IMG/VR virus record: IMGVR_UViG_3300038701_000531
Span: 1 to 64,000 of that record
Source: a virus
Reading direction: 5' to 3' (one strand)
DNA: 64,000 nt
Shown: piece after piece, positions 33,941 through 37,391 of the stretch
How the letters are laid out: the number at the start of each line of letters is the position of its first letter
Position numbering within the stretch: position 1 is the stretch's first letter
Notes under the pieces: generated by a model
Databases searched by the model: none
The model's input: the letters and a program-made list of their open reading frames with translations, nothing else
What the model was told of the DNA's origin: nothing
Program-made: the position numbers and the translations under genes

Positions 33941-34843
33941 CTACCTCTGTGCCTGTGCATTAATATTATTCATCTTAACTCTAGTATCTACAGAGCCATT
34001 GCCTGAATCATCTATAGTGATAGTATTAGATACACTAAAACCTATACCCTCTAGAGCCGATAAAAGGATATCTTTAGCTCCACCTACTATATTAGTTCCA
34101 ATTGCTTGGTCTATTGTAGCATAAGGACCTGACCAAAAAAATGTTTCTGCTAGGCTAGGTTCTGTTTTTTTCTGTGAGGACTTATCACTAGACCTCTTAT
34201 CAACTTCACTATCTGACCCAAAACCTAAGTCTTTACCTAGTCTTCTTTCTACTTCACCCATAATGTTCTTAGAACTTAAAGCTATAACTTCTTCTATTAG
34301 TGCTTTAAGTAACATTAATTTAAGTATTACCCTACCTAGTGGGTTTAACATTAAGAGAAAACCTGCTGATAGTTTACTTACTGTGCTTTCAGCAAATTCA
34401 CCGCCTACTTGGTTAAGGAAACCAAACATTTTAAGAAGCATACCTAGAGAACTTAAAGCTCTTAATATTGCCCCTGCTAATTCCCTAACTACACCAAAGA
34501 CAACCTCAAAGGCTTGCCCTACAGCTTCTAGTGTTGGTTCTAGTTCTTTTAATCTTAGTGATAAATCTTTTAGTAGTTTGGCAAAACCTCTACCAAAACC
34601 TTTCTTAAAGATTGTATCTTGTGCTTTTTGTACTTGTGTAAAGAATCTACCTTGTTGTACTCTAACAGTCTTAAGAGCTTCAGATAATGCACCACCTTGT
34701 CTAGCGGCTTTAGCAAACTCTTTAGCTACTTTTGGAAGCACATCTTTAGCTAAGAGTGTGCCTTTTTCCATCATTGCAAATAATTCTTGCTCTGATACAT
34801 TTAGAGCGCTGGCAAATACTTGTATACTTCCGGGAACTTGTTC
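33941..34843 (-). CDS. Tape measure protein, exon 3 (C-terminal 300 aa)
   Basis: Starts with the codon run for EQVPGSIQVFASALNVSEQELF, which continues the conserved tape-measure motif (EEL.GQLGEQ.PGA..). It includes hydrophobic helices (AILRALSSLGMLLKMFG; SAGFLLMLNPLGRVILKLMLL) typical of tape measures, which thread the tail lumen. Read alone it has only a poor TTG start inside the intron; it is joined to the 16-nt exon 2 by removal of intron 2. Exons 1+2+3 give 670 residues. Confidence 0.85.
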   Translation of the reverse strand, partial: EQVPGSIQVFASALNVSEQELFAMMEKGTLLAKDVLPKVAKEFAKAARQGGALSEALKTVRVQQGRFFTQVQKAQDTIFKKGFGRGFAKLLKDLSLRLKELEPTLEAVGQAFEVVFGVVRELAGAILRALSSLGMLLKMFGFLNQVGGEFAESTVSKLSAGFLLMLNPLGRVILKLMLLKALIEEVIALSSKNIMGEVERRLGKDLGFGSDSEVDKRSSDKSSQKKTEPSLAETFFWSGPYATIDQAIGTNIVGGAKDILLSALEGIGFSVSNTITIDDSGNGSVDTRVKMNNINAQAQR

Positions 34844-35174
34844 CAATTATATTCAATAAAAGTCGCTACACCTTTACCCGCCCATCAAGGGCTGCTATAT
34901 GTCTCCATATAGTTTAGACTATATCTTAATCTACAGCACTACCTGTTTAGATTCCTACCATTTCCCTCACCAATCGCTTGTGAAGTACGAGCTAAAGCTC
35001 TAGTCGTTGATCCTGCCTCTTATCAGAGGATTGGATGCTGATTGACCTTATCTTAATAATTTTTACAGGTCGCCAGTATATCTCTATCTGGTATTGTATA
35101 TTAAGCTTAACAGGTGTTTCCAGCAGTTAAATAGGTTTTCATAAGGAGTTTCCTACCTTAAGCGCCTAACATTA
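34844..35174 (-). ncRNA. Group I intron 2 of the tape-measure gene, 331 nt
   Basis: 5' site CGCT|TAATG with guide GGCG giving P1 C-G, G-C, C-G and U:G at the splice site. Core elements in order: P (AACTGCTGGAAAC), Q (AATCAGCATCC), R (GGATCAACGACTAGA), S (AAGATATAGTC). P9 is a stem CTATATG/CATATAG with GAGA tetraloop; the intron ends ..ATAATTG|GAACAAG. Splicing restores the frame. No ORF inside. Confidence 0.8.
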
Positions 35175-35190
35175 AGCGAGTTGTTGCTTT
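35175..35190 (-). CDS. Tape measure protein, exon 2: 16-nt micro-exon
   Basis: AAAGCAACAACTCGCT, flanked by intron 1 ending ..AACTTAATG and intron 2 starting TAATG. Joined to exon 1 (..GAAGAGCT) and exon 3 (GAACAAG..) it reads EEL-KQQLA-EQVPGSIQ, exactly the expected tape-measure motif. Without it the flanking exons are out of frame. Confidence 0.8.
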
Positions 35191-36297
35191 CATTAAGTTT
35201 TTTCTGATAAGTTCGTTACTCTTACCACGTTCTCTAAGAACTGCTACATGTCTCCATGCAGATAGGATCATATCTTCACCCTCTCTAATGAGTAGGGGCT
35301 TTCTGTTTCGATTCTACTTAGAACCTACTCCCTTTCGGGATGACCTCTGAACTACTATTTTTTTTTTTTTAGAAATATAAATCTGAAATATCTTTATATC
35401 TTATCTTGTGTCGTATACGTTTCACTTCAATCACTTTAAGGTTTTTATTGGTAGATATCTTAGCTATGTTCTGGTCTGAGATACCTTCATTTATCTTTTC
35501 ACAAACCCAACAAATAGTTTTTGTAGAGAACTCTGTTCTATACTGGTGAGGTACTTGATAAAGTTTTCTTACATGGAACCAAGTATCTCCAGCTTTTAGC
35601 TTCCGTAGAACATCCATACTTATGTTATAACTGTCGGAGAGGTCTCTTACTCTATAACCTTCTGACAATTTTTTACAAAGTTCGTGTGCTGTGTTCTCAT
35701 CAAAAGAAGAGTTGTATAACCCCTCTCCTCTACTGCTTTCTAAGTTCTGTCCTGCGTGTTGCTGGTTTTGTGCCAAGGAACACCACTCTAAATTATCTAA
35801 GTGGTTATTTAGCTTATTACCATCTATGTGATTAACTGTTGTCCATATTTCAGGGTTAGGGTTGGGTATCCAAGCTTTTGCCAGTAACCTGTGTACTCTA
35901 GCGCAAGCTGCTTTACCATTAATACAAGTTCTTATATACCAGTACTTAGGTACTCCTTGTAAAGTGTGAGTCATCTCTTTTTCAGAATCTATCCTGAATA
36001 TTCTACCACATTTACTAACAGCGTAAGCTGGGTATTCCTCACAAACTTTAACCTTATAGCCTTTTATTTCAAAAATATTTGACATTTATTTCTCCTACTG
36101 AACTTGGGAGTTAAAAAAAAAATAATAGCTGCGGATTGTCTCTATTATTAACCTTATTACCATACCACGCTCATTACAGCGTGTGCTAGTACCTTATCAC
36201 TAAAGCACTGCGGTAGTCAATACCTAACAAGATATCCCCGCAATTAAGAAAGTTTTTACTTAATTATTACTAAAAAAGTGAGCCAAATCAACAACTT
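35191..36297 (-). ncRNA. Group I intron 1 of the tape-measure gene, 1107 nt, with HNH ORF
   Basis: 5' site GAGCT|AAGTTG; guide GGCTC forms P1 (G-C, A-U, G-C, C-G, U:G). Core elements: P (AATTGCGGGGATATC), Q (AATCCGCAGC), R (GTTCAGAGGTCATCC), S (AAGATATGATCC). P9 is a stem CTGCATG/CATGTAG with GAGA tetraloop. The HNH gene lies between Q and R. The 3' site is ..TTAATG|AAAGC, the final G being the conserved guanosine. Confidence 0.85.
35369..36085 (-). CDS. HNH homing endonuclease (NUMOD4-HNH) inside the intron, 238 aa
   Basis: Residues ~1-50 (EIKGYKV..EEYPAYAVSKCGRIFRI) match NUMOD4. The HNH core is RVHRLLAKAW..NPNPEIWTTVNHIDGNKLNNHLDNLEWC (His-Asp, Asn, Asn-Leu-Glu-Trp). Two helix-turn-helix-like segments (RVRDLSDSYNISMDVLRKLK; SDQNIAKISTNKNLK) would bind the target. 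ATG has AGGAGA upstream and lies in a loop between Q and R. It would spread the intron into intronless tape-measure alleles. Confidence 0.88.
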   Translation of the reverse strand: MSNIFEIKGYKVKVCEEYPAYAVSKCGRIFRIDSEKEMTHTLQGVPKYWYIRTCINGKAACARVHRLLAKAWIPNPNPEIWTTVNHIDGNKLNNHLDNLEWCSLAQNQQHAGQNLESSRGEGLYNSSFDENTAHELCKKLSEGYRVRDLSDSYNISMDVLRKLKAGDTWFHVRKLYQVPHQYRTEFSTKTICWVCEKINEGISDQNIAKISTNKNLKVIEVKRIRHKIRYKDISDLYF

Positions 36298-37391
36298 AGC
36301 TCTTCTGACATGATCGTGGTCTTATTGAGCATTTGTTGCAATGCCCTTAAACCACTTTTAGCTTGCTCAGGTGCAACTTTAAGAGCTGTAGCAAACTCAC
36401 TAAAACCTGTAAACAATTCTTTTGTTTCAGTTCTAGTCAACTTACCTTTAGCTGCAAATTGCAATTTAGAGAAAGCATCTGTAGAGGCTTTTAAGTCTAA
36501 ACCTAACCTTACAACTTCACTATCAACAAAAGCTAAATCATTAGCAGCTAACTTAGCAGAACCTGATGATGCAAGCATTGACGCTCTCATTCCCTCAAAA
36601 TCCTGACCTACTCTATTAATAGATTGAACACTATTTAATACAGCAAAAGCACCTAAATAAGATGTAGCTAATTGTCTAGCTGATTCCTTCATCCTATTCT
36701 GTGCCCTAGTTAACTCATTAATCTTTTGTTTCGTTTGTGAGGAAACTCTATTTATCTTCCTCATCTCAGCAGCTTGAGCTTTAAGAGCCATAGTAGCGTC
36801 TATAGTAGACTTACCCATTTTCTCTTGCTCTAGTCCTAACTGCCTTAATTGTTTTTGTTGCTTCTCTGTGAGATTAAATAGTAATCTCCTACCCTCAACA
36901 GTTCTATTAAAGAAATCATCACCGCCTTTAAAAGGAGTTAAAGCTTTATTGTTACTATCCTTAGTAGATGTAAAAGCATCAGGTTTCTTAAATATGTTCT
37001 CTTTACCAAGTAAAGCATTTGTAGAATGAGTCTTTTTAAGTTCATTCTTAAATCTCTGTTGAGCTAGAGTAGCTTCTTGTATTTCATTTTTGAGTTTTAA
37101 AAACTCAGAGGCTTTGTTAATATTATTAAGTCTATCTTTGAAACCTACTAAGGTAGACCCCATCCTTTCAAGCCTATCATGTGCGCCTTGAATAGCTAAC
37201 CTTTGCCTTTTAAGAGCATCACCACTAAATGCAGTGTCCATCTTATTAGCTTGAGCTACACTATTGGCTCCAATCATCTTTAAAGATTTATTAATTCTAT
37301 TTAAACTATCCTCTATCTTTTTAACTTCTTTTGTATCAGCTTTAATACTAAGTTGAGCAAAGAAGTCTGCAATCGAGAATCCTGATGCCAT
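36298..37391 (-). CDS. Tape measure protein, exon 1 (N-terminal 364 aa)
   Basis: ATG with GGAGAT upstream, immediately after the tail-chaperone fusion. Typical tape-measure N-terminus (SIADFFAQLSIKADTKEVKKIEDSLNRI), long coiled coil, then GLRALQQMLNKTTIMSEEL. The reading frame hits a stop 4 codons into the intron, so the annotated ORF end (36288) is not the biological end. Splices to the micro-exon. Confidence 0.88.

Follow-up and report, generated by a model that had tools for sequence, protein, structure and literature searches.

The window analysed here, 64,000 nt of viral DNA (positions 1 to 64,000 of IMG/VR record IMGVR_UViG_3300038701_000531), carries on its minus strand, between 37391 and 33941, one tape-measure gene from a metagenomic contig that is interrupted by two group I introns, A and B (Table 1). 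The ORFs at 37391-36288 and at 34846-33941 both belong to this gene, as its two parts, as an earlier note on the same DNA had proposed. Exon 1 matches PHROG tape-measure families with E-values down to 1.4e-41, and strong matches to these families are found for each half; scored separately against TMP_3, the halves reach 27.7 and 26.0 bits, under the Pfam cut-off of 41. The model coordinates continue across the junction: the N half stops at position 111 of TMP_3 and the C half restarts at 115, the match to PHROG 5255 runs to 426 and resumes from 432, and that to PHROG 2335 runs to 598 and resumes from 603. These gaps mean that 3-5 residues are absent between the halves.

Table 1. Elements of the interrupted tape-measure gene, in window coordinates
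Feature	Coordinates	Strand	Details and evidence
Exon 1	36298..37391	-	1094 nt, ends ..GAAGAGCT; translation and PHROG
Group I intron A, site S3	35191..36297	-	1107 nt, ends ..TTAATG; leave-window-out nhmmer and helix covariation
Intron A guide sequence	36278..36284	-	GGCUC (36284-36280) forms P1 with GAGCU of the exon; splice-site pair U:G
Intron A P3 5' strand CUUUCU and start of P4	36238..36252	-	P3 changed on both sides in 6/6 pairs
Intron A P4 3' strand (CAAUCCGCAGC)	36128..36138	-	P4 95% paired
HNH homing-endonuclease ORF, P6 loop of intron A	35369..36085	-	238 aa; Pfam HNH_3 E=1.8e-6, above cut-off; phrog_59 E=4.1e-41
Intron A P7, P3 3' strand, P8, P9	35244..35347	-	paired: P7 91%, P8a 93%, P9 95%
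Micro-exon AAAGCAACAACTCGCT	35175..35190	-	16 nt; KQQLA codons and last base of Leu codon
Group I intron B, site S5	34844..35174	-	331 nt, no ORF, ends ..AATTG; Rfam and leave-window-out nhmmer
Exon 3 (EQVPGS..)	33941..34843	-	903 nt; translation and PHROG

The introns and the 16-nt exon between them make up an insert of 1454 nt. Joining 1094 + 16 + 903 nt gives an open frame of 671 codons including the stop, and the predicted 670-aa protein reads EEL-KQQLA-EQVPGS, via ..MSEELKQQLAEQVPGS... Without the 16-nt exon the frame is shifted and the protein ends prematurely at EELNKFPEVYKYLPAL (stop). That a single intron cannot restore the frame, another statement of the earlier note, holds for the scheme tested; this solution was rejected, as exon 1 joined to exon 3 is out of frame.

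With the window left out of training, models still recover both introns claimed between the halves. For intron B the leave-window-out nhmmer match covers 35156-34847 (E=1.2e-42), and for intron A there are two matches, 36287-36126 (E=4.6e-21) and 35352-35202 (E=7.8e-15). Across 34844-36297, Rfam recognises intron B (RF00028, 34895-35184, 88 bits against a gathering score of 50, full length 1-253) and only sub-threshold fragments of intron A (22.8 and 17.6 bits, same gathering score), where a second intron, with an ORF, was recognised by hand. Intron A falls below the gathering score because the 717-nt ORF splits it. The last intron base is G in both.

Intron A has the group I core P3-P9 with its P3/P7 pseudoknot, by the leave-window-out model and by covariation of P3, P4, P7, P8 and P9. 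When its eight core helices were scored on the 13 other site-S3 introns, they were 90% paired and 27/45 pairs covaried; with the 3' partner moved by 1-3 columns, these figures were 36-52% and 8-16 pairs, a control somewhat biased toward the helices, which were read from the window, the bias being lessened by leaving the window out of the count. Among all 14 site-S3 introns P1 is paired in 70/70 cells with U:G in 14/14, and both sides have changed in 6/7 pairs of P9 and 6/6 of P9.2. Support is weak for P7.1 (82% paired) and P7.2 (60%), and P2, P6 past three pairs, P7.2 and P8b are poorly kept. In P10 of intron A a mismatch follows after just 3 bp. A long pairing with the micro-exon (11 of 12, AGUUGUUGAUUU/AAAGCAACAACU) was also seen in this intron.

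The HNH ORF is intact and lies in a peripheral loop. Its placement in P6 comes from the pairing GCUAUUAUUU/AAAUAGUAGU, of which relatives keep only the first three pairs well. Most likely this ORF drives, or once drove, homing of intron A into the conserved tape-measure site, and its protein presumably cuts the intronless site. Indirect signs of such homing are lineages shared at the same site by distant phages and the presence or absence of introns among relatives.

A gene that is simply broken, or that codes for two separate proteins with introns that no longer splice, is a very improbable reading of this locus. The divergence of intron A and an in-frame TTG at exon 3 could be taken in its favour, but the TTG listed as the start of the exon 3 ORF (34846-34844) is no start codon, being the last three bases of intron B. 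Moreover, the exon frames are open, the conserved motif is intact, compensatory changes maintain the core helices, and the ICP1 orthologue is spliced in infected cells (PMC10448857).

For the 16-nt exon we used a dynamic-programming parser trained on four intact relatives only, which requires T before the intron, G at its end and a U:G-containing P1 no shorter than 4 bp. For the window it returned exactly the junctions of the earlier note, with a score of 91.0. Dinucleotide-shuffled inserts reached this score in 0/200 cases, with a top shuffle of 89.8, and the score was dismissed as stand-alone proof because a difference of this size is too weak. Thus, reading frame, motif and P1 alone fail to single out the 16-nt exon. 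The decisive support is comparative, and it is strong. In an IMG/VR relative (L005, 78-81% identical) there is no intron at site A, MSEELKQQLA is unbroken, and a 345-nt site-B intron follows before EQVPGS. Four intronless relatives (L004, L006, L013, L015) read EEL(K/R)xQ(L/M)(G/A)E at the motif; no intron interrupts the motif in L004, L006, Vibrio K354 and 424E50-1. It follows that KQQLA is exonic and that A and B are separate insertions. A 16-nt exon at S3/S5 recurs in ICP1, HNL01 and 10AMN. The two complete introns, the splice sites, the micro-exon and the restored KQQLA of the earlier note are thus backed by relatives, including L005 and the parse of ICP1. In the phage collection searched at nucleotide level, the window has no relative.

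The same comparison bears on whether the 1454 nt are one composite or nested element (twintron) with AAAGCAACAACTCGCT intronic. Such an element would agree with the single contiguous insertion between the gene halves and with the one intron that Rfam places above threshold, but we give it almost no credence: L005 has intron B alone with KQQLA joined to exon 1, A and B each have their own P1-P9 and belong to separate lineages, and exon 1 joined straight to exon 3 breaks the frame.

We therefore favour, with a probability of about 95%, a tape-measure gene of a tailed marine phage that two self-splicing introns of group IA type interrupt independently, and whose splicing would yield the 670-aa protein. 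Intron A lies in the EEL codon of EELKxQLxExxPG and intron B after KQQLA, which leaves 16 coding nt between them. Each guide pairs with the end of its own 5' exon in a P1 with U:G, with GAGCU in the case of A and, in the case of B, with CGCU, the four bases that end the micro-exon. Through P10 each intron also pairs with its 3' exon. For intron B these pairings are CGCU/GGCG (P1) and UGUU/AACA (P10). The mean length of P10 is 4.98 bp with the true 3' exon and 3.11 +/- 0.20 bp with randomly dealt exons. The window's micro-exon gives its first three bases to P10 of intron A and its last four to P1 of intron B, which leaves room for both helices at the same time. Splicing of A and B, initiated by guanosine, would then bring the three exons back together. 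For this phage we infer splicing itself, and its order, from the sequence.

In addition, some transcripts might, as in Twort orf142, skip the 16-nt exon by joining the 5' site of A to the 3' site of B, with a truncated product that is regulatory. Natural skipping has been reported for exons of 23 and 34 nt that lie between two group I introns (PMC10136302), and skipping also for phage SIOphi (PMC11878797); exon 3 here has GAACAAG, which resembles CAACAA of the micro-exon. Against this, the frame would shift, the protein would be truncated, and A and B have different guides. We consider such skipping unlikely, if conceivable alongside the two-intron splicing set out above.

Introns of this gene cluster by site: the best match is at the same site in 43/48 cases (10,000 permutations: mean 7.5, maximum 23/48), a count that overstates independence since close relatives inherit introns by descent. 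Introns A and B belong to different site-specific lineages and are clearly not copies of each other. Duplication of one into the other was rejected, as each matches introns of its own site best.

In marine myophages the motif EELKxQLxExxPG has nine insertion sites within 75 nt and 0-5 introns per gene, with micro-exons as short as 8 nt. Two introns are found in PhAER-4 (micro-exon of 11 nt), K470 (33 nt) and 11895-B1 (49 nt), three in HM1 (25, 36 nt), J2-1 (25, 39 nt), ICP1 (8, 16 nt) and HNL01 (33, 16 nt), four in S4-7 (18, 18, 8 nt) and 10AMN (18, 26, 16 nt; last exon corrected by hand), and five in H101 (25, 8, 11, 20 nt). Rfam independently gives five tandem matches in H101, four each in S4-7 and 10AMN, and three each in HNL01, HM1 and ICP1. 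The collection scan used two sub-alignments, the 14-sequence alignment being too diverse, and automatic parses are distrusted for the last exon of L022 (corrected by reading), for L039 and for two truncated contigs, L027 and L032.

The five introns of Pseudoalteromonas phage H101 (L010, 2843-5332) lie within 64 nt of coding sequence; its GenBank record mentions only an intron HNH endonuclease. All of the 8-nt H101 exon GAAGAGCT is taken up by P10 of intron 2, a helix of 9 bp that extends by one base into intron 3, and P1 of intron 3 draws on the same exon. These two helices are mutually exclusive, which predicts ordered splicing. Among open-access papers, we found none on the micro-exon clusters of H101, S4-7 and 10AMN, nor any account of two introns that both claim one 8-nt exon. 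We tentatively suggest, with somewhat less than even confidence, that the hotspot reflects repeated, independent invasion by group I introns and that its densest cases, in which P10 of the upstream intron and P1 of the downstream one each take up a whole micro-exon, form a coupled ribozyme array with a fixed splicing order.

Two other endonuclease genes of the hotspot deserve mention. In the S5 intron of HNL01 (L020, 4033-5027) the HNH ORF looks broken, with no ORF of at least 390 nt and two short ORFs annotated; this HNH-like remnant suggests endonuclease decay. The S1 intron of HM1 (L011, 2187-3043) carries, judged by eye, a CxxC-type HNH ORF (CSKCNEEL..CAYCGD), unlike the NUMOD4-type ORFs at S3.

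Elsewhere in the window, the large-terminase gene (50225-47199, minus strand) is apparently interrupted three times, with splice sites placed by eye. A group I intron at about 50120-49898 follows VIYGGA; then come 15 nt (AGSGK, Walker A) and a LAGLIDADG intein (ALKHG..VTHN) that ends before S, which puts these two elements 15 nt from each other within Walker A. A second group I intron, which Rfam scores at 99.7 bits, lies at about 48648-48392. An in-frame TGA (50195-50193; LSKQVVIQPQ*QKGSQ) stands at codon 11 of what is taken to be the first exon, downstream of a good ribosome-binding site; it is possibly a sequence error, a stop or a sign of an unrecognised start further on. Recoding of TGA, considered because of the TGA codons in the terL exon, was rejected: of 77 long ORFs that do not overlap, 11 end in TGA, and TGG codons number 216. 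Upstream, at 50905-50227, two ORFs look by eye like the frameshifted pieces of a GIY-YIG-type homing endonuclease (YIGVRTYK).

Automatic annotation splits intron-rich tape-measure genes into 'hypothetical proteins' and loses their micro-exons. These genes show to what extent an essential phage gene tolerates subdivision by selfish ribozymes with its product retained. ICP1, H101, S4-7 and 10AMN are natural systems for studying splicing order and fidelity across 8-16-nt exons, as well as the competition of homing introns for one conserved site.

Several other genes also have small exons with a group I intron on either side. In Staphylococcus phage Twort, orf142 has several group I introns in one tail gene, two of them separated by a 23-nt exon (Landthaler and Shub 1999, via PMC10136302); gene and introns are different from those here, the exon is longer and exon skipping occurs. 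Coxiella has a 34-nt exon between group I introns (PMC10136302), and small exons between two group I introns are described for the ribonucleotide reductase of phiNIT1 and the terminase of SIOphi, again other genes (PMC11878797). Mitochondrial micro-exons go down to 1 nt, as in placozoan cox1, but in an organelle, with group IB introns and in an unrelated gene (PMC5436844).

Closer to the window are two phages with the same tape-measure gene and motif. H101 (KR534323) has an S3 intron that shares about 78% identity with the beginning of intron A over 147 nt; it differs in its five introns by parse and in the lack of an S5 intron. Vibrio phage ICP1 (gp79-81) has the orthologous gene, an HNH endonuclease in its S3 intron as in the window, and, by our parse, a 16-nt exon AAAAGGTCAACTGGGT between S3 and S5 as well; it differs in a third intron at S2, hence an 8-nt exon GAAGAACT, and its same-site introns have diverged. 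In Barth et al. 2023 (PMC10448857), RT-PCR and Sanger sequencing give four exons and three introns for the ICP1 transcript, with the HNH homing-endonuclease gene typically in the middle intron; our sequence-based parse agrees in intron number and position of that gene. The earlier note, right on anatomy and mechanism, called two ribozymes 16 nt apart in an essential phage gene very unusual. This is only partly so, since for marine myophage tape-measure genes such arrangements are common and often more extreme, and the four-exon transcript of ICP1 was confirmed in 2023; rarity was overrated for this family. The window thus joins the intron-split tape-measure genes already known, and the hotspot of the whole family is of more interest than the window itself.
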